From Butyrivibrio sp. (lineage in GTDB: Bacteria > Bacillota > Clostridia > Lachnospirales > Lachnospiraceae): a stretch of DNA of 41,967 nucleotides. A program made the position numbers and the translations under genes. Positions 2,819-41,967 of the stretch are shown here, in pieces; position 1 is the stretch's first letter, and each line of letters begins with the position of its first letter. Location: contig JAILEJ010000151.1 in NCBI GenBank assembly GCA_024688095.1, positions 1 through 41,967 on the forward strand. Direction: 5' to 3'. The notes beneath the pieces were generated by a model. The model ran no database searches and was not told the DNA's origin. It worked only from the letters and a program-made list of their open reading frames with translations.

Positions 2819-3331
2819 ATGAAATGCCCATTTTGTGGTAAAGATGATACCAGAGTTATTGATTCAAGACCAGCTGATGATAATACTTCCATCAGAAGAA
2901 GAAGAGTTTGTGATAATTGTGGAAAGAGATTCACCACATATGAAAAGGTTGAGACTATTCCGCTTATTGTTATAAAGAAGGATAATGTTAGAGAACCGTA
3001 TAACAGAGCCAAAATTGAAGCCGGTGTTTTAAGAGCATGTCATAAAAGACCTGTCAGTGCGGAACAGATTACAAAGATTGTTGATAGTGTAGAGACAGAA
3101 ATCTTCAATCTTGAACACAAGGAAATTCCAAGCAGAATTATAGGTGAGCTTGTAATGGATAAGATAAAGAATCTTGATCCTGTTGCTTATGTAAGATTTG
3201 CTTCTGTATACCGCGAATTTAAAGATGTAAATACGTTTATGGATGAACTTAAGAGCGTACTTAAGAAAGAGGAAGAAGGAATAATCACAGATTCAACTGA
3301 CAAAACAACACCTCTTTTGAAGAAAGAATAA
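2819..3331 (+). CDS. nrdR: Transcriptional repressor NrdR (zinc ribbon + ATP-cone)
   Basis: MKCPFCGKDDTRVIDSRPADDNTSIRRRRVCDNCGKRFTTYE; start at 2819 rather than the longer ORF start at 2756. Confidence 0.95.
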   Translation: MKCPFCGKDDTRVIDSRPADDNTSIRRRRVCDNCGKRFTTYEKVETIPLIVIKKDNVREPYNRAKIEAGVLRACHKRPVSAEQITKIVDSVETEIFNLEHKEIPSRIIGELVMDKIKNLDPVAYVRFASVYREFKDVNTFMDELKSVLKKEEEGIITDSTDKTTPLLKKE

Positions 3332-3389
3332 AATACACAGCTTTTTTATGAAAAAATTTAATATCGTGAACGAAGGGAAGGATTGTAAC

Positions 3390-5000
3390 ATGATGAAAAA
3401 GATTTATGGTGGTAGGAAATCTCTATCACTGATACTTGTCTTGTTATCGACACTGACTATTACATTGAGCGGATGTTCAAGTAAAAAGGCAGAGGATTCT
3501 GTAACTCAGGATAGCAATGTGGAGAGTACAAGTGCAGAAAGCACAGATGCATCTCAGGACGAGGCTGGAATAGAGGAGACAGATGATCTTTCAAAGATTA
3601 CTGTTGGTATTCCTCAGGACCTCGATAGTATGGATCCACATACTGCAAATGGTGCAGGTACTAAAGAGATATTGTTTAATATCTACGAAGGACTTGTTAA
3701 GCCTGATGAAAATGGTAATCTTGTTCCTGCTGTAGCTAGTGAGTATACAATTTCCGAAGATGGAACTGTCTATAGTTTTACACTTAGGGATGGAATAAAA
3801 TTCCATGATGGTAATCCGGTTACAGTAGAAGACATTAAGTATTCTATAGAACGTAATGCAGGTACAGATGGAAGTGAGCCACTTGTATCAGCATTTTCTA
3901 ACATATCAAGTGTGAATATAATTGATGATTCACATATAGATATTGTATTAGATCAGGCTAACACAGAGTTTCTTGCTTATCTGGATATTGCCATTATTCC
4001 AGCTTCTAATAGTGATACTGAGGGAAATCCAATTGGAACTGGTCCTTATAAGTTTGTTTCCCGTTCTCCACAGGAGAATCTGATTCTTACAAGATTTGAT
4101 GATTATTGGGGAGATGCAGCATATATCAAAGATGTTACTATCAAGATTGAAGCAAATGCTGATGCAGTAGTAATGGATCTTGAGGGTGGCTCAATTGATA
4201 TGTATGCCAGACTTACTTCAACACAGGTATCACAGCTTTCAGATACCTTCGAAGTATATGAGGGAACAATGAATCTTGTTCAGGCACTTTTCCTTAATAA
4301 TGCAGTAAAACCTTTCGATGATGTAAGGGTAAGGCAGGCACTTTGCTATGCAATTGATCCTCAGACAATAATGGATTTTGTATCTGATGGAAAGGGAACT
4401 GAAATTGGAAGTAATGTCTTTCCTGCATTTACAAAGTATTTTATGCCAGAACTTACAGATACTTATAATCAGGATATAGATAAAGCAAAAGAGCTTCTTT
4501 CTGAAGCAGGCTATCCTGATGGCTTTGAATTTACAATAACAGTTGCATCAAACTATACTCAGCATGTTGATACAGCACAGGTTATTTCAGAACAATTAAA
4601 GGAGATAGGTGTAACTGCCAATATTCAGGAAGTTGAATGGAATTCATGGCTTAGTGATGTTTATACAGACAGAAACTATGAAAGTACAGTAGTTGGTGTT
4701 GATGCATCCACGCTTACAGGTTATGCACTGTTTTCAAGATTTGCATCAGATGCACATAATAACTTTACAAATTATAATAATTCAGATTATGATGCAGCTT
4801 TTGCAAATGCTGTAGCAACAGCTGATGATGACGAAAAGACAAAATATTATAAAGAATGTGAAACTATTCTTGCTGAAGATGCTGCAAATGTTTATATTCA
4901 GGATTTACCTGAGTTTGTAGCTCTTAACAAGAAATATACCGGATATGTTTTTTATCCGCTTTATGTTCAGGACCTTTCTAAAATCCGTCCTGCAGAATGA
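3390..5000 (+). CDS. Peptide ABC transporter substrate-binding lipoprotein (SBP_bac_5 family)
   Basis: Lipobox LSGC, family 5 SBP sequence (ITVGIPQDLDSMDPHTANGAGTKEILFNIYEGLV...IGTGPYKF); followed by permease and ATPase genes. Confidence 0.92.
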   Translation: MMKKIYGGRKSLSLILVLLSTLTITLSGCSSKKAEDSVTQDSNVESTSAESTDASQDEAGIEETDDLSKITVGIPQDLDSMDPHTANGAGTKEILFNIYEGLVKPDENGNLVPAVASEYTISEDGTVYSFTLRDGIKFHDGNPVTVEDIKYSIERNAGTDGSEPLVSAFSNISSVNIIDDSHIDIVLDQANTEFLAYLDIAIIPASNSDTEGNPIGTGPYKFVSRSPQENLILTRFDDYWGDAAYIKDVTIKIEANADAVVMDLEGGSIDMYARLTSTQVSQLSDTFEVYEGTMNLVQALFLNNAVKPFDDVRVRQALCYAIDPQTIMDFVSDGKGTEIGSNVFPAFTKYFMPELTDTYNQDIDKAKELLSEAGYPDGFEFTITVASNYTQHVDTAQVISEQLKEIGVTANIQEVEWNSWLSDVYTDRNYESTVVGVDASTLTGYALFSRFASDAHNNFTNYNNSDYDAAFANAVATADDDEKTKYYKECETILAEDAANVYIQDLPEFVALNKKYTGYVFYPLYVQDLSKIRPAE

Positions 5001-5086
5001 TTTGTTACCGGGGAAAACAAATTAAAAATAAAAAATGTTTATAGGTACAAATCGATAAATTTTTAGATTGTGCGAGGAATAAACAA

Positions 5087-6031
5087 ATGAAATATATTAT
5101 CAAAAAGATTCTAATGATGATTCTAACTTTGGTGGTGGTTTCGTTTTGTGTATTCCTCGCTTTTTCATTAATACCGGGAGACCCTGCAACGCGTAAGCTT
5201 GGTACTGAAGCAACACCTGAACTTATAATGCAATACAGGGAAAAGATGGGATTAAATGATCCACTTCTTGTAAGATATTTCAGATGGCTTATTTCTTTTA
5301 TAAAGGGTGATATGGGAACATCCTATTCATATAGCGTTCCGGTAAGTTCAATGCTTATGAATAAGCTTCCTATTACTTTAACGCTTGGAATAATGTCTTT
5401 TGTAATGATGATAGTTATATCTATTCCACTCGGAATATATACAGCAAAGCATGAAAATGGTTATATAGATAAAGTTATAGTGGTTATAAATCAGATTATA
5501 ATGGCTGTTCCGCCATTCTTTTCAGGAATACTTCTTACGTTTCTTTTTGGAATGATATTTAAACTTTTTACTCCCGGAGGATTTGTTTCTTATACTCAGG
5601 ATATGGGAGCATTCTTGAAATATCTTATATTACCGGCTATATCTATTGCACTTCCAAAGGCTGCAATGTCAACTAAACTTCTTAGAGGTTCAGTTATTGC
5701 AGAAGCAGAAAAAGATTATACAAGAACGGCATATAGCAGAGGTAATTCTACAACTGAAGTTTTATACAGGCATGTATTAAAAAATGCAATGATTCCTGTA
5801 ATTACATTTATGGGGATGGCCTTGGCAGATATGATAGCAGGAAGTATTGTAATAGAGCAGGTTTTTAGTATTCCGGGTATAAGCAGGATACTTCTTACAT
5901 CTATAAGTAACAGAGATTATCCTGTTGTTGAAGCTATAATAATGGGAATTGCGATTTTGGTAATAGTTACAAACCTTTTGGTAGATATAATTTACAGAAT
6001 AATTGATCCAAGAATCGAGACAATGGAATGA
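5087..6031 (+). CDS. Peptide ABC transporter permease (DppB/OppB-like)
   Basis: Six-TM permease, N-terminal GDPATRKLG and EAA-loop region SRGNSTTEVLYRHVLKNAMIPVITFMG. Confidence 0.93.
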   Translation: MKYIIKKILMMILTLVVVSFCVFLAFSLIPGDPATRKLGTEATPELIMQYREKMGLNDPLLVRYFRWLISFIKGDMGTSYSYSVPVSSMLMNKLPITLTLGIMSFVMMIVISIPLGIYTAKHENGYIDKVIVVINQIIMAVPPFFSGILLTFLFGMIFKLFTPGGFVSYTQDMGAFLKYLILPAISIALPKAAMSTKLLRGSVIAEAEKDYTRTAYSRGNSTTEVLYRHVLKNAMIPVITFMGMALADMIAGSIVIEQVFSIPGISRILLTSISNRDYPVVEAIIMGIAILVIVTNLLVDIIYRIIDPRIETME

Positions 6032-6867
6032 AAAAGTTTTTTGATAATATTTTCAGATATAAATCAAATAAGAAAATTAATGGTTATATGGTGGCAGGAA
6101 GTATAATTACAGGTTTAATTATTCTAATGGTCATTGTAGGACTTTTTTATATGCCATATGATCCAACTAAGATGGATTCATCCTGCAAATTACAGGGAAT
6201 ATCTCTTAAACATATCATGGGTACAGATAATATGGGAAGAGATGTATTTAGCAGGGTTATGTATGGCAGCAGAGTAACACTTTTAATTGCTATAGGAACT
6301 GTTACGATGGGCGTTGTAATAGGCAGTATAATAGGTGCTTTTACCGGATACTATGGCGGAATGCTTGATGAAGTATTAATGAGAATAATTGATGCACTGT
6401 TTGCCTTTCCAAGTATACTGCTTGCGCTTGTGTTTGTAAGCCTTTTTGGAACCGGAACATATCAGGTTATTATTTCTCTTGGGATTGCTTTTGTTCCAAG
6501 CTTTGCCAGAATAGTCAGAAGTGAAGTATTAAGATGTAGAAATATGGACTATATTGAGAGTGCCAGACTTCAGGGTGTACCTGATCTACGAATCATATTT
6601 GTGCATATCATTCCAAATACAAAGGATACAATGATTCCTTCAATTCTTATAGGCTTTAATAATGCAGTGCTGGCAGAGGCAGGACTTAGTTATCTGGGTA
6701 TAGGATCGCAGCCGCCATATGCAAGCCTTGGTAAGATGTTGTCTGATGCACAGTCTTATATGTTTACAACTCCAAGTTATGTTCTAAGTATTGGTATGAC
6801 AATTGTTCTTATGATACTTGGGTTTGCATTTCTCGGAGAAGGACTTGGTAAGGACAAACGCGGGTAA
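6028..6867 (+). CDS. Peptide ABC transporter permease (DppC/OppC-like)
   Basis: HIMGTDNMGRDVFSRVMYGSRVTLLIA signature; overlaps preceding stop by 4 bp. Confidence 0.93.
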   Translation: MKKFFDNIFRYKSNKKINGYMVAGSIITGLIILMVIVGLFYMPYDPTKMDSSCKLQGISLKHIMGTDNMGRDVFSRVMYGSRVTLLIAIGTVTMGVVIGSIIGAFTGYYGGMLDEVLMRIIDALFAFPSILLALVFVSLFGTGTYQVIISLGIAFVPSFARIVRSEVLRCRNMDYIESARLQGVPDLRIIFVHIIPNTKDTMIPSILIGFNNAVLAEAGLSYLGIGSQPPYASLGKMLSDAQSYMFTTPSYVLSIGMTIVLMILGFAFLGEGLGKDKRG

Positions 6868-6882
6868 ACAGAGAGGTTAAAT

Positions 6883-7680
6883 ATGGCTGATATTATTTTA
6901 GATGTTTCAGATTTGAATATAGAGTTTCATGATCATGATAAGCCGGAAACAGTTGTTTTTGATTTTGACCTGACTCTTGAAAAAGGAGAGATAGTAGGTA
7001 TAGTAGGTGAATCCGGATCGGGAAAGAGCATGAGCGCACTTGCAATTGCAGGTCTTTTAAAAAGACATGCACTTACCAAAACAGGAAGAATAATGTTTGA
7101 TGGTCATGATCTTCTTACCTGCGACAGAGATACTCTCAGAAGTTATCAGGGTGATGAAATAGCAATTATTTTCCAGGAGCCTATGACAAGCCTTAACCCG
7201 GTAAAAAAGATTGGTTGGCAGGTGGAAGAATGTCTTAGGATCCATCATAAGGATATGTCAAAACAGGAACGTAAAGAAAAAGCTGTAAATATGCTTGATT
7301 CTGTAGGAATTCATGAGCCTGAAAAGGTATATAATATGTATCCGCATGAACTCTCAGGGGGAATGAGGCAGAGGGTAATGATAGCTGCAGCAATGATCGC
7401 AGACCCTCAGATACTCATTGCTGATGAGCCTACTACAGCTCTTGATGTAACGGTTCAGGAACAAATCGTTGAACTATTGAGAAAACTCAACAGGGAAAAA
7501 CAAACCTCAATTATTTTTATTTCTCATGATCTTAGCCTTGTTAGCAGACTTTGCCAGAGAGTCCTTGTTATGAACAAGGGATATGTTGTGGAAACCGGAA
7601 AGACTGAGGATGTTTTTAAGAGGCCAAGAGAAGAATATACAAAACGGCTGATTGCAGCTATTCCAAAGATTGATATATAA
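6883..7680 (+). CDS. Peptide ABC transporter ATP-binding protein (DppD/OppD-like)
   Basis: Walker A GESGSGKS, LSGGMRQR signature, Walker B ILIADEPTTALD. Confidence 0.93.
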   Translation: MADIILDVSDLNIEFHDHDKPETVVFDFDLTLEKGEIVGIVGESGSGKSMSALAIAGLLKRHALTKTGRIMFDGHDLLTCDRDTLRSYQGDEIAIIFQEPMTSLNPVKKIGWQVEECLRIHHKDMSKQERKEKAVNMLDSVGIHEPEKVYNMYPHELSGGMRQRVMIAAAMIADPQILIADEPTTALDVTVQEQIVELLRKLNREKQTSIIFISHDLSLVSRLCQRVLVMNKGYVVETGKTEDVFKRPREEYTKRLIAAIPKIDI

Positions 7681-36291: not shown

Positions 36292-36344
36292 AGAATTTGT
36301 TTTTTGGCAGTTTTTTATGAGGTAGTGTATCATCGGGGAGATAT

Positions 36345-38933
36345 ATGAATAACGAAAACTATCGAAATAATAAAATGACTGAGGGTGCGCATTTGCTCAT
36401 CCTGGTATCATTTACCGTAACTGCATGTATTTTATTTGGAGAGATATTGATAAGAGGGTGGGATAAAAGCACAATACCTATTATTATAGGTCTTGTTGTT
36501 TACTCCTGGTCAATATATTTACTTCAAAAATATAATACTGTAGTCAGGGTTTATTTGTATGCAGTTTTCATGATGATCTGCTATTTCATATATGGAATAC
36601 ATCAGACAAGCCTTACAATTTTGCCATTGTCCATGGTAGTTATTATTTTGATTTTTTATATCGCAAGGGTTCAGGCAATCATCTGGTGTGCAGAATTTAC
36701 GTATCTTTTTACAGTACTTTTAAATATTGTGAAAGAAGGAAGTGATTGGAAAGAAAATTATAATATCACTTTGGAAGAAGCGTTTCTTCAATACTTTTTG
36801 GTTTTACTTGCAGGCTTTGTTGCAAGCACATTTATCATAGAAAGAAAAAAAGAACAAGAACTTCGTTTGCATGAAGAAGCTGAAATGGAAACAAATGAAG
36901 ATTATGCAAGAGAGCAGATCAGAGTAATCGCAAAAGAACTTGGAAAATATGCCAGAGATATTGAAGGTGACCTTTTAATATTTCGTGATGCACTTACTAA
37001 AGGGCAGAGTATTGAAGATATAAATTCAAAATTATCAGCTATTCATACAAAGAGTCTGGAATTTGAGACAGAGCTTACAGATTTGAAAGATTTTTCTGAT
37101 TTGTTATCAGGAAAATCAGAAAATCATGAAGAAGGTTATGAAGTGCTCGATCTAATGAGCCAGCTGAGAAATATACGTCATATATTTAACGATGAAAATG
37201 ATGTTGATCTTATAATCGACTTGGATCCAATGGTTCCAAAAGCAATGGTTGGCGATTGGGACAAAATATTAAAGATTATGAGACATCTGATTAATAACGG
37301 ACTTCGATTTACAAAAAATGGTGGTGTTCAGGTAAAGATATATACATATTCACATGCCGGAGATTTTAATTTATGTATAGAAATCAATGACACAGGAATA
37401 GGAATGGAGAGAACTGCTCTTGAACGTCTTCTTGAACAGATAAACGACAGAAAAACGGCAATGTACAGACCGGGTGGACTTGGACTTGGACTATTTCTTG
37501 TTACCGGTTTTGTAGAAAAAATGGGCGGTTTTTTTCGCATGGAAAGTGAGTGGGGAAAAGGAACTACTGTATGCGTAAGTATACCACAGAGAGTAACAGA
37601 TGCAGCTCCCTGTATGTCCTTTGATAATAAGGCAGAAATATGTCTTGCTTATGAGGACTATGAATATTTTTATGGCAGATTAAATGATTTTTATGAAGAT
37701 TTATTTAGAAACTTTTCGGAAAAGATAGGTATTCCTGCATATGCGGTAAAAAATAAAGAGGAGCTTTCAGAACTTGTTCATGCATATAAAAAAGTCTGTC
37801 TTTTAGTTGATTCAAGCTTTTACGAAAAAAAGACGGAGTATTATGAAAGCTTAGACGAGATATATGTCTTAGTTTTGTGCAACGTAGGATATGTTCTGCC
37901 AGAAGATTCTCATGTGCATTTATTGTATAAGCCGATCGAATCACTTGATATTCTATATAATATTGAATGGGCAAAAAAGACGATAGACAGGCGTAGAAGA
38001 GACGATAATTTTGAAATTTCAGACTCACAGATTCACATTCACGCTGAAAGCCTGAAAGAAAGAGATATACGTCAACGCGGCGGACGCGAAATCATGATAG
38101 TAACTGATAGTATGTCAGACCTTTCACAGGAAACCTCCAAGAAAAGAGGTATTCCAATTATTCCTTTCAGGGTGTATACAGAACAGGCAAGCTTTCTTGA
38201 TGGACTTGAACTATCGCAGGAATGCGCACTTGATTATCTAAAGAGAAATTGCAGAAAAAATTCTATTTATTCAATGGCACCCGAGGAAAATGAATTTAAG
38301 CTGTTTTTTGAAGAAAATCTTCGTTATGCAAAGCATCTTATATATATTTGTAGTTCAAAGGGTGTAAGTGTGGCGTATAATCGCGCCAAGAAAGCTGCAG
38401 AAAATATGAATAATGTAACGGTCATCAATTCAGGCCAGATATCTGGCGGAGTGGCGCTTATGGCTGTGGCTGCAGATGAAATGGTTAAAGAAGGAAAGAG
38501 CATGCCGGAAATTCTTTCGTATTTGTCGGTGCTACGCTCAAAGATTAAAACATCTTTTCTTATAGAGAATCTTGATTACATGATATATATCGGGAAAGTC
38601 AGTAAGGGTGTTGGAAGGCTTGCCCGTGCGTTAATGTTTCATCCTGTTATAGTAATGAAAAGAGATGTTCTTACTATAGGCGGTGCAAAATTTGGAAATC
38701 TTAACAGCTCTAAAAAATCCTATATTCAAAAGATTCTTAAAAACAAAAATAAGATTGATACATCAAAGGTATTTGTAGGATATGTCGGACTAAAGGAGAG
38801 AGAACTGGCGGGACTTGAATATGCGCTAAAAACTGAAGGCGGTTTTGAGGATATAGTGCTTAGAAGAGCTTCAGCAGCAATTTCTATAAACTGTGGAGTA
38901 GGTACATTTGGAATTATTTATATTCAAAAATAA
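36345..38933 (+). CDS. Membrane-bound histidine-kinase-like ATPase fused to C-terminal DegV domain
   Basis: Several N-terminal TM segments; HATPase_c N-box MRHLINNGLRFT, G1 INDTGIGM, G2 GGLGLGLFLV; C-terminal DegV-like IMIVTDSMSDLSQETSKKRGIPIIPFRVY...VTVINSGQISGGVALMAVAADEMVKEGKS...FLIENLDYMIYIGKVSKGVGRLARAL. Confidence 0.88.
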   Translation: MNNENYRNNKMTEGAHLLILVSFTVTACILFGEILIRGWDKSTIPIIIGLVVYSWSIYLLQKYNTVVRVYLYAVFMMICYFIYGIHQTSLTILPLSMVVIILIFYIARVQAIIWCAEFTYLFTVLLNIVKEGSDWKENYNITLEEAFLQYFLVLLAGFVASTFIIERKKEQELRLHEEAEMETNEDYAREQIRVIAKELGKYARDIEGDLLIFRDALTKGQSIEDINSKLSAIHTKSLEFETELTDLKDFSDLLSGKSENHEEGYEVLDLMSQLRNIRHIFNDENDVDLIIDLDPMVPKAMVGDWDKILKIMRHLINNGLRFTKNGGVQVKIYTYSHAGDFNLCIEINDTGIGMERTALERLLEQINDRKTAMYRPGGLGLGLFLVTGFVEKMGGFFRMESEWGKGTTVCVSIPQRVTDAAPCMSFDNKAEICLAYEDYEYFYGRLNDFYEDLFRNFSEKIGIPAYAVKNKEELSELVHAYKKVCLLVDSSFYEKKTEYYESLDEIYVLVLCNVGYVLPEDSHVHLLYKPIESLDILYNIEWAKKTIDRRRRDDNFEISDSQIHIHAESLKERDIRQRGGREIMIVTDSMSDLSQETSKKRGIPIIPFRVYTEQASFLDGLELSQECALDYLKRNCRKNSIYSMAPEENEFKLFFEENLRYAKHLIYICSSKGVSVAYNRAKKAAENMNNVTVINSGQISGGVALMAVAADEMVKEGKSMPEILSYLSVLRSKIKTSFLIENLDYMIYIGKVSKGVGRLARALMFHPVIVMKRDVLTIGGAKFGNLNSSKKSYIQKILKNKNKIDTSKVFVGYVGLKERELAGLEYALKTEGGFEDIVLRRASAAISINCGVGTFGIIYIQK

Positions 38934-38945
38934 TGGAGAAAATGA

Positions 38946-40325
38946 ATGAGAAAATATTCATTCAAGTGGATAGCAGCGGCTTTAATATTTGCTGCAGTCC
39001 TGTTATCTACAATTGCATATGTATTTGTGGGAGTTGATCATGAGGATGATCAGATTAATAATATTCTGATTGCGGAAATGATAGATAGTTCTGTAAGAGA
39101 AGAGCTTTCAGAGGTAATTACTGTTTCAAGAATGATGAGTCAGGATTCAACTCTCAGGATTCTACTTGAAAATGAGTCTGATTATAATGTGGAAGATATG
39201 GTTCTTAAGATGCGCAATTATCTTAATTCTATTCAGAAAAAGTTTGGGTTTACATCGGTTTACGTTATTTCTGATTTTAGCAAGAATTATTATAGCTATG
39301 TTGGACTTAATAAGACCATTGATCCTGAAAATGATTCTTTTGATACCTGGTATACAATTTTTCTTCAGAATGGAAAAAACTATGAACTTGAATCATCTAC
39401 AGACCAGGTTAACAGAGACAGGCTTACAATATTTGTTGATGGAAGAGTTGAAGATGATAAAGGAAATCTTCTGGGGGTATCCGGGGTCGGTCTTGAGACA
39501 GAAGAAATAAGAAAACTTCTTGCAAGATTTGAAAAAGTTTATGGTGTAAGAACTGATTATGTATCTGAAGATGGTCTTGTACAGATGAGTAGCCGACTGG
39601 AAGCAGTTCATACATCGTATGTTTCAGGTATAACTCTTCCGGACAAAATGGAAGAGGATTATCTATATGACACCTATGGAATGGATGGATTTGTGGTAAC
39701 AAAATACATAGAAGAACTTGGATGGTACCTTGTAGTTAGAAGTGATACTTCTTATGGTCATGTAACATATAATTATGTTTTCTTTTTTGCAGAAGTTCTG
39801 ATTGTTGTTTCTTTGATTGCAATCCTGTTTTTTGTATCTAAAAATTCACAGACGGAGTTTTCGGTTGGAACTATTAAAAAGCAGAATATTGACGATCTTA
39901 CAGGACTTCCAAACAGGGACTATTTTATAAAAATTTACGGTGAAAATGGTAATCTGAATACAACACAATATAAATGCATAGCTGAGTTTAGTATAGATGA
40001 TTTTGATAGAATAAAGAAACTTACAAGTTACGATAGAATTATACTTTCTGTTGCAAGAACTGCGAAGGAAATTCTTGGACAGCAGGGACAGATTATCCGA
40101 TGGAATAATAATTCCTTTGTTGTACTTCTTGAAACTTCCATAGATGAGGCTGATGAGGCATGCAGACAGTTTTGCAGGGCTGTTGAAGATATTGGAGAGG
40201 TAACTGTTTCAGTTGGACTTACAGAGATAGATTTAAATGATACATTAAAGAAAAATTATTACAGAGCCATACAATATTTATACTTGGTTAAAGAGCTTGG
40301 CGGAAATAACGTGAAGAGGGGGTAA
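38946..40325 (+). CDS. Membrane sensor (dCache-like extracellular domain) with degenerate GGDEF domain
   Basis: Two TM segments flanking ~250-aa periplasmic-type domain; DDLTGLPNRDYF GGDEF start but active site RWNNNSF instead of RxGGDEF. Confidence 0.88.
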   Translation: MRKYSFKWIAAALIFAAVLLSTIAYVFVGVDHEDDQINNILIAEMIDSSVREELSEVITVSRMMSQDSTLRILLENESDYNVEDMVLKMRNYLNSIQKKFGFTSVYVISDFSKNYYSYVGLNKTIDPENDSFDTWYTIFLQNGKNYELESSTDQVNRDRLTIFVDGRVEDDKGNLLGVSGVGLETEEIRKLLARFEKVYGVRTDYVSEDGLVQMSSRLEAVHTSYVSGITLPDKMEEDYLYDTYGMDGFVVTKYIEELGWYLVVRSDTSYGHVTYNYVFFFAEVLIVVSLIAILFFVSKNSQTEFSVGTIKKQNIDDLTGLPNRDYFIKIYGENGNLNTTQYKCIAEFSIDDFDRIKKLTSYDRIILSVARTAKEILGQQGQIIRWNNNSFVVLLETSIDEADEACRQFCRAVEDIGEVTVSVGLTEIDLNDTLKKNYYRAIQYLYLVKELGGNNVKRG

Positions 40326-40329
40326 TGCT

Positions 40330-41967
40330 ATGAAGTCAATCCGTACAAGACTTATTGGTGCCTTCCTCGGAACTATTTTATTAGTCTTTTTTGCACTGGC
40401 ATCAATTGGTATTTATTATCTGGCTGCGGCTATAGAAGTTCATTCTACTCAGGCGATGGAAGTTCTTAATGAAGAAAAAGTAATGGAGCTTAACAACTAC
40501 TTTGATGATGTAGAAAAATCTGTTAATGTGCTTCAGGAATATCTTATTGAAAATGTTACAGTTAATAAATATAAAGTAGGAGAAGCTTATCGTCAGAGAA
40601 TATTTGATGAACTAAAAGGCAGAGCCAAAAGCATAGCATATATAATTGATAATGTTCAGGCAATATATTTTAGACCTGATCCGGAATTATATGGTGGGAC
40701 AGCAGGGTTTTTCCTGTCAAAATCATCAGATGGAGAATTAAAAAGCTTAACTCCGACAGATATTCTTCAATATGATAAGAATGATTTTGAGCATGTAGGA
40801 TGGTATTATGAGCCTTTAAAGACAGGTGCTCCTACATGGCTTGAACCGTATTCTAATGAAAATATCAATATTTATATGATCTCATATGTTGTTCCGGTAT
40901 ATCTTGGAAATGAGTTTCTTGGAGTGCTTGGCATGGACATTGATATGACACTGGTTCATCAGACTATTGATAAAATAAATTATCAGGGAAGTACAGGTGC
41001 ATTATTTAGTAAAGGCAGAACTCTTTTATACCATATAAATTATCCGGGAGGATTGGACAGAGATAATTTTACTGAAGAAATATCTGCAATAACTGATTTT
41101 TGTACAGATGAATATATAAACACAAAAAAGAATTATCAATATTTTATAGGTGCATCAAAATACAGAATAATGGTCAATAGACTTGAAAATGGGATGATTT
41201 TTACTATTTCTACTCCTGAATCTGAACTTTTCAGATTTAGAAATGCAATGATAGTACAGCTCTCTATGATTCTTTTGGCAGCACTTATTCTTATGGTTAT
41301 TGTATCTATACGTATGACCAGAAAAATTGTTGATCCTATACAGGAGCTTACTGATGTTTCATCGCGTATAGCAAAGGGAGAGCTTGGTCAGACAATTGAA
41401 TACTATTCACAGGATGAAATAGGCTCTCTTGCTGACAGTATTAGAAAAATGAGTGTAGAGCTTGGAAAATATATAGATTATATTCATGGACAGGCGTATC
41501 TGGATGCTATGACGGGTGTTAAAAATAAGGGTGCATATCTTGCTGAGCAGACTAGACAGGAAAGACTTATCAGGGAAAATATGGCAGAGTTTACACTCTA
41601 TGTATTTGATGTTAATGGTTTAAAGAAAATGAATGATACAAAGGGACATGAATATGGAGATATGATGATTAAGGATGCAGCTCTAAATATAAGAACTATT
41701 TTTGGAGCTGATCAGGTTTACCGTGTTGGCGGAGATGAGTTTGTAGCTTTTTCTGATGATGATTCTGAGGAAGAGATATTAAGACAGTTTGCCCGTTTTG
41801 ATGAGCAGCTTCGTAATTTTAATAAAGATAATGAAAGATATGAAGAAGAGCTTGCTATTTCCAAGGGTGCAGCTGTTTATAGTCCTAGACTAGACTCAGA
41901 GTTTGCAGATGTATTTGGACGGGCAGACGAAGAAATGTACAAATGTAAGGCTGAGTATTATAAGACT
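40330..41967 (+). CDS. Membrane sensor diguanylate cyclase (dCache-like, HAMP, GGDEF), 3' truncated by window
   Basis: Own translation from ATG 40330 open to the window end (546 codons); N-terminal TM, HAMP MTRKIVDPIQELTDVSSRIAKGEL, intact YRVGGDEFVAF; not in ORF track because it has no stop in the window. Confidence 0.9.
   Translation, partial: MKSIRTRLIGAFLGTILLVFFALASIGIYYLAAAIEVHSTQAMEVLNEEKVMELNNYFDDVEKSVNVLQEYLIENVTVNKYKVGEAYRQRIFDELKGRAKSIAYIIDNVQAIYFRPDPELYGGTAGFFLSKSSDGELKSLTPTDILQYDKNDFEHVGWYYEPLKTGAPTWLEPYSNENINIYMISYVVPVYLGNEFLGVLGMDIDMTLVHQTIDKINYQGSTGALFSKGRTLLYHINYPGGLDRDNFTEEISAITDFCTDEYINTKKNYQYFIGASKYRIMVNRLENGMIFTISTPESELFRFRNAMIVQLSMILLAALILMVIVSIRMTRKIVDPIQELTDVSSRIAKGELGQTIEYYSQDEIGSLADSIRKMSVELGKYIDYIHGQAYLDAMTGVKNKGAYLAEQTRQERLIRENMAEFTLYVFDVNGLKKMNDTKGHEYGDMMIKDAALNIRTIFGADQVYRVGGDEFVAFSDDDSEEEILRQFARFDEQLRNFNKDNERYEEELAISKGAAVYSPRLDSEFADVFGRADEEMYKCKAEYYKT

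Follow-up and report, generated by a model that had tools for sequence, protein, structure and literature searches.

A histidine kinase-like protein lacking its phospho-acceptor histidine, fused to a DegV domain and encoded beside two GGDEF genes in Butyrivibrio

The window (a 41,967-nucleotide stretch of a contig from Butyrivibrio sp.) encodes an 862-residue membrane protein that joins a histidine kinase core without its phospho-acceptor histidine, via a likely pseudo-receiver, to a C-terminal DegV domain. The parts of this protein are known; their combination is new. We tentatively propose, with a confidence falling a little short of an even chance, that it is a non-phosphorylating, ATP-binding pseudokinase, the DegV domain of which senses an acyl ligand, and which regulates c-di-GMP output by protein contact. 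An initial annotation, made from the sequence alone, had envisaged a fatty-acid-responsive membrane ATPase or pseudokinase coupling lipid status to signaling; as a whole this interpretation is partly supported, but it missed both the probable derivation of the protein from a tandem kinase pair, and the operon of GGDEF genes in which it lies. It also knew of no functional description of similar proteins, and our literature search likewise found none, nor any description of a DegV/FakB domain built into a histidine kinase. DegV-bearing sensor kinases occur in many Lachnospiraceae, most visibly in rumen Butyrivibrio (416 related stretches; the best 80 were examined). If their DegV domains sense acyl ligands, then they would constitute a large, unrecognized class of two-component systems that respond to lipids and are linked to c-di-GMP. 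By separating the lipid domain from the phosphorelay, the collapsed fusion makes the question of lipid sensing directly testable.

The fusion gene is a single ATG-started open reading frame (ORF) running from 36345 to 38933 on the forward strand with no break (Table 1), and the uninterrupted frame and N-terminal hydrophobic segments noted initially, of which there are six, are both confirmed. The source assembly is a draft (83% complete, with 4.5% contamination). A frameshift or assembly error merging two genes, a refuting possibility that the annotation had named in the case of a frameshift, was considered and rejected, as three full-length orthologues (L085, L188, and L189) and a copy on another contig of the same assembly (C51, locus L057) all read through in one frame. 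Pfam identified HATPase_c at residues 304-415 (E 3.5e-17) and DegV at residues 583-861 (E 4.5e-39), and the protein passes the NCBIfam DegV domain model TIGR00762 (150.8 bits, against a cut-off of 99.7). These searches returned no HisKA, Response_reg or Hpt match in the fusion, unlike in the related kinases described below.

Table 1. Positions of the fusion gene, its component features and the neighboring operon genes within the window.
Feature	Positions	Strand	Basis
Probable ribosome-binding site GGGGAG, 4 bases 5' of the ATG at 36345	36335..36340	+	sequence
Fusion gene, 862 aa: 6TM - His-less DHp - HATPase_c - likely pseudo-receiver - DegV	36345..38933	+	
Six hydrophobic (TM) segments, aa 18-159; homologous to the A-protein N-terminus	36396..36821	+	
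DHp-like helical region, aa 171-260; without a conserved His	36855..37124	+	alignment
Lys197 codon, at the position of the A-protein phospho-accepting His; E198 of the H box retained	36933..36935	+	alignment
HATPase_c, aa 304-415; N, G1 and G2 boxes retained, F box/ATP lid altered	37254..37589	+	Pfam, alignment
Likely pseudo-receiver, aa ~430-556, beta-alpha fold; E437/D438, D489 and K529 at receiver-like positions	37632..38012	+	model, alignment
DegV/FakB-like domain, aa 583-861	38091..38927	+	Pfam, model
Ser643, FakB1 Thr62 position	38271..38273	+	
Ser671, FakB1 Ser95 position	38355..38357	+	
Lys751, FakB Arg173 position (Arg173 required for FakA phosphorylation)	38595..38597	+	
Asn849, FakB1 His270 position	38889..38891	+	
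Operon gene 2: 459-aa membrane protein, Cache/PDC-like sensor region, degenerate GGDEF (RWNNNSF)	38946..40325	+	
Operon gene 3, cut by the window end: dCache-HAMP-GGDEF, VGGDEF motif intact	40330..41967	+	

Counting the window's own protein, there are four full fusion orthologues in three genera, which bears out the expectation that similar proteins occur in related Lachnospiraceae. Identity to the fusion is 54% in a congener, and 52 and 50% in two species from other Lachnospiraceae genera; the C51 fragment is 84% identical. In nearly every other match, the A-like and DegV-like parts sit in neighboring genes, which encode what we term the A and B proteins. In representatives analyzed with Pfam, A comprises six transmembrane segments, HisKA, HATPase, an unassigned segment of ~130 residues (the likely pseudo-receiver) and a receiver (REC), plus Hpt in one subgroup, and B comprises six transmembrane segments, HisKA, HATPase, REC and DegV, plus Hpt in its long form. 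The genes are directly adjacent, A then B, in Butyrivibrio and other Lachnospiraceae. A scan of contigs with the fusion protein alone as query returned no matches, and a genome scan with an alignment of the DegV subfamily recovered 416 relatives, the best 80 of which are almost all labeled Lachnospiraceae, mostly from the rumen and including several Butyrivibrio. Among these best 80, an ORF lies at most 120 bp upstream of 70 complete B genes; that ORF matched kinases in 69 cases, and overlaps B by 4 bp in 53 of the 70. At six further loci inspected, an A-type gene adjoins B in five, and the reading frames are split in the sixth (L179). In an order-wide sample, frames with a fused DegV occurred in several Lachnospiraceae genera and in one other family, and a search with PF02645 located DegV in three other frames of at least 550 residues within the fusion's own genome, which also carries an intact A-B pair on contig C407, beside HD-GYP and REC genes. 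The tandem pair is widespread and, apparently, undescribed. It shares the six transmembrane segments, DHp/HATPase core, likely pseudo-receiver and DegV modules with the fusion, but consists of two proteins with the phospho-accepting His, REC and usually Hpt, all three of which the fusion lacks.

Residues ~1-540 of the fusion match A, and residues 580-862 match the DegV domain of B. In a tree of the HATPase and middle segment, the window, C51 and G091 sequences fall inside the short/Hpt subgroup of A proteins, with which they occupy one side of a 100/100 branch, and in a separate tree of the DegV domain the same three group, with 94/91 support, among the B proteins of the short form; neither tree includes the orthologues from G399 and G459, and the exact sister of the fusion clade is unsure because its branches are long. 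As both halves belong to the same A/B subgroup, an in-order deletion-fusion of an A-B pair is, from these sequence relationships, most simply the origin of the gene: one deletion, extending from the REC of A to the end of the REC of B in A-then-B order, would yield the observed arrangement.

Alignment with more than 50 homologues places the SHELRTP motif of the intact kinases against AKELGKY in the fusion, such that Lys197 occupies the phospho-His position. The initial annotation was therefore correct that no phospho-acceptor histidine is present, but its chosen H-box site, YARDIEGD, lies a few residues too far downstream and is rejected by the alignment. The position is Lys in the window, L188 and L189, and Arg in L085; the following Glu198 is retained in all four full orthologues. 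A displaced phospho-His was considered and rejected, since no His in the DHp is conserved among the fusion orthologues. Nor does the fusion typify an A family without the His: all 101 A proteins longer than 600 residues carry the H box, as do 111 of 113 B-type ORFs longer than 860 residues, in two locus sets that share some genomes and so are not independent, and the two exceptions are one ORF cut by a contig end, and the fusion-type orthologue L085. The N (N317), G1 (DTGIGM at 349) and G2 (GGLGLG at 377) boxes are all present, as first reported, and the F box is changed. From these sequences we infer that the HATPase domain binds ATP without autophosphorylation or phosphate relay, because the DHp lacks its His and there is no canonical REC or Hpt. 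The "membrane ATPase" of the annotation gains no support beyond the intact nucleotide-binding core.

The dN/dS ratio between the fusion and the C51 copy is ~0.11 (dS 0.80, 549 codons), on which ground a pseudogene was rejected; a ratio of 0.17 relative to L085 is merely indicative, as dS is saturated in that comparison. Loss of the His, the receivers and Hpt might be expected of a decaying, functionless relic of an A-B pair, but this ratio, the orthologues in three genera and the invariant operon structure render such decay barely credible. Having lost its His while under purifying selection, the fusion instead ranks as a pseudo-histidine kinase. DivL carries a Tyr at the phospho-His position, together with PAS domains, whereas the fusion has Lys or Arg at that position, six transmembrane segments, a likely pseudo-receiver and DegV. 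What the fusion shares with DivL and other pseudo-histidine kinases is replacement of the phospho-His in a histidine kinase-like core that is retained under selection (PMC4211667, PMC5361649, PMC9491836).

The segment of ~130 residues between HATPase and DegV was left unassigned initially, with the suggestion that it be checked for a receiver fold. Neither Pfam nor profile searches of solved structures yielded a sequence-level match for it, and only fold comparison was productive. An AlphaFold model of residues 415-575 (mean pLDDT 70) has the strand-helix order of a receiver, with the fourth helix absent; in Foldseek comparisons with the PDB, receivers ranked top (best E 7e-4), and the CikA pseudo-receiver was among the matches (E 6e-3). 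As other, non-receiver alpha/beta folds also appear, we consider a pseudo-receiver likely, on the strength of the model, rather than proven. Fusion sequences are mostly acidic at E437/D438 and D489 and carry Lys529, and A proteins have Gly or Ala where the fusions have the receiver-like Asp. This acidic pair, the acidic residue ending the third strand and the beta5 Lys are what one would expect if the domain were a working receiver, phosphorylated by some other kinase or Hpt protein, with HATPase and DegV in modulatory roles. We think such a phospho-input protein decidedly unlikely, given that the beta4 Thr/Ser is not conserved (Cys or Ala in the window and G091), that D489 is replaced by Glu in L189 and D438 by Gln in L188, that Pfam Response_reg did not match, and that confidence in the model is modest. 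Among known hybrid kinases, ShkA, GacS/BarA and RcsC bear a pseudo-receiver between HATPase and REC (PMC7010744). That order is found in the A proteins, and not in the fusion, which has no REC. The fusion resembles ShkA-type kinases in its likely degenerate, receiver-like domain after HATPase and its suggested link to c-di-GMP, but differs in lacking the His and the terminal REC, and in having DegV instead.

DegV/FakB proteins are fatty-acid carriers for phospholipid synthesis. The initial call of a C-terminal DegV region is upheld by Pfam, TIGR00762 and a predicted FakB fold: DegV/FakB structures, some of them solved with bound lipid, match the AlphaFold model of residues 579-862 (pLDDT 87) with E-values from ~1e-26 to 1e-18 (Foldseek best 2e-26) and TM-scores of about 0.76-0.87, ~0.85 for FakB. 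FakB1 holds the fatty-acid carboxylate via Thr62, Ser95, Ser171 and His270 (PMC8892158), and the FakA reaction requires Arg173 of FakB (PMC9136124). The equivalent residues in the fusion are Ser643, Ser671, Ile749, Asn849 and Lys751, respectively, such that the hydroxyls at the Thr62 and Ser95 positions are retained in the window; the Ser95 position is Ala, and the Arg173 position is Arg, in G091, and fusion sequences have Asn at the His270 position. The departures from TSxPS and SSxLSGT that had been read as atypical DegV motifs are partly an effect of alignment register, the real departures being those at His270 and Arg173. Relative to FakB1, FakB2 and other DegV proteins (PDB 5uto, 4x9x, 2dt8, 1mgp), the domain therefore shares the overall fold and the hydroxyls at carboxylate-holding positions, but not His270 or Arg173; and whereas FakB is a free carrier, this DegV domain is part of a membrane signaling protein. 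On the model, acyl binding is plausible, and with it lipid sensing; on sequence grounds, the substitution of His270 by Asn849 and of Arg173 by Lys751 makes FakA-type acyl phosphorylation unlikely. These two replacements could also mean that the ligand is not a fatty acid, or that there is none.

The same residues bear on whether the DegV domain simply presents a fatty acid to FakA in the manner of FakB, with the kinase remnant a mere membrane anchor. The FakB fold, the retained hydroxyls and the presence of a FakA gene in the fusion's own genome fit an enzyme-coupled carrier of this kind, but we hold it to be very improbable in light of Asn at the His270 position in fusion sequences, of Lys at the Arg173 position in the window, and of Leu, Phe or Tyr there in most long B proteins; moreover, there are separate, standalone DegV relatives in which both His and Arg are retained (L001, and one DegV ORF at L114). 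Asn occupies the His270 position in 97 of 103 long B proteins, where a near-invariant Asn-Cys-Gly replaces the His-x-Gly of FakB and, together with loss of Arg173, defines a signaling DegV subfamily. Short B proteins retain the Arg, and mostly have Ile or Asn at the His position.

The fusion gene is followed after 12 bp by gene 2, and this after 4 bp by gene 3, in identical order and with identical spacings in all four species, which represent three genera. In each of them gene 2 encodes a 459-aa protein with a degenerate GGDEF, and gene 3 a dCache-HAMP-GGDEF protein whose GGDEF motif is intact. What lies upstream varies, from CheR in the window to a two-component pair at L085 and opposite-strand ORFs at L188 and L189, so the fusion gene probably starts the operon; a shared upstream promoter was rejected, as the upstream regions are only weakly similar and contain no more promoter-like sites than do shuffled sequences. 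The conserved pair of GGDEF genes suggests a connection to c-di-GMP, and operon and fusion together suggest an unrecognized link between lipids and this messenger. Intact A-B pairs also lie beside GGDEF or HD-GYP genes, at 18 of 70 named loci and 17 of 37 genus loci, and always on the same strand; these are raw counts that include related loci, against a background of 47-51 GGDEF domains per genome. That the constant genetic partner of the fusion is the GGDEF pair, and not an A-B pair, weighs against a scheme in which the fusion works as a modulator in the manner of DivL or RetS, docking on or heterodimerizing with A/B kinases encoded elsewhere (for example on C407) and switching their kinase/phosphatase balance by lipid status, with the GGDEF genes as outputs of separate signals. 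Its DHp-HATPase core does derive from A, its genome retains the intact pair on C407, its sequence matches to solved structures included RetS and DivL, and DivL offers a precedent (PMC4211667, PMC5361649). Nevertheless, the DHp is the fastest-diverging part of the fusion (37% identity to the G091 orthologue), which makes a preserved A/B dimer interface improbable, and we rate modulation of this kind as unlikely.

Under the pseudokinase reading that we tentatively favor, the DegV domain would bind an acyl-type ligand, and ligand and nucleotide state would together alter the conformation of the fusion dimer, which, through protein contacts, would influence the two GGDEF proteins encoded alongside it and thereby couple lipid status to c-di-GMP. 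The pseudo-receiver may be a docking or small-ligand module, by analogy with ShkA, and feedback of c-di-GMP on the fusion is conceivable. Precedent exists for both halves of this mechanism, in that c-di-GMP binds the pseudo-receiver of ShkA, which is located after HATPase (PMC7010744), and DivL is a repurposed histidine kinase core (PMC4211667); for the combination of such parts with DegV, our literature search found no precedent. Ligand, partner, output and direction of effect are ones that we infer. Against this explanation, operon linkage is no proof of physical coupling, genes 2 and 3 carry sensor domains of their own and could act independently, and E437/D438, D489 and K529 could let the middle domain still accept phosphate. 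Unsaturated fatty acids, which B. fibrisolvens hydrogenates, are also compounds to which it is sensitive (PMC2836310). A bolder version of the proposal, to which we give a low probability, is that the fusion is a new lipid-to-second-messenger receptor: DegV would read the free fatty-acid pool and, with the degenerate GGDEF protein, control how active a dedicated diguanylate cyclase is; its ancestors would be lineage-expanded, paired fatty-acid-sensing hybrid kinases of rumen bacteria, among which are Butyrivibrio that hydrogenate PUFA and are sensitive to fatty acids.

Several variants of these systems were observed in passing. The degenerate GGDEF of gene 2 (RWNxxxFVVL) recurs in the window, L057, L085, L188 and L189, and represents a second pseudo-enzyme of the operon. 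The three-gene cassette recurs at positions 2-4688 of C51 (genome G000, locus L057), with 84-89% protein identity; this second copy is either a paralogue or a congeneric contaminant. In the same genome, contig C463 (L056) encodes a permuted protein on the reverse strand (3220-6375), with an N-terminal DegV followed by TM-HisKA-HATPase-REC-Hpt, and directly upstream of it an A-like gene (HATPase-pseudo-receiver-REC; 6394-7473, reverse strand). Another reduced A-B pair lies on contig C64 of genome G030 (L072; 2271-4721 and 4718-6400, both reverse strand), in which B is HisKA-HATPase-DegV, retaining SHE but without TM segments and REC, and A is without the middle pseudo-receiver. Lastly, REC-GGDEF response regulators directly adjoin A-B pairs at L048, L047, L094 and other loci, and are the probable phosphorelay output of the intact systems to c-di-GMP.
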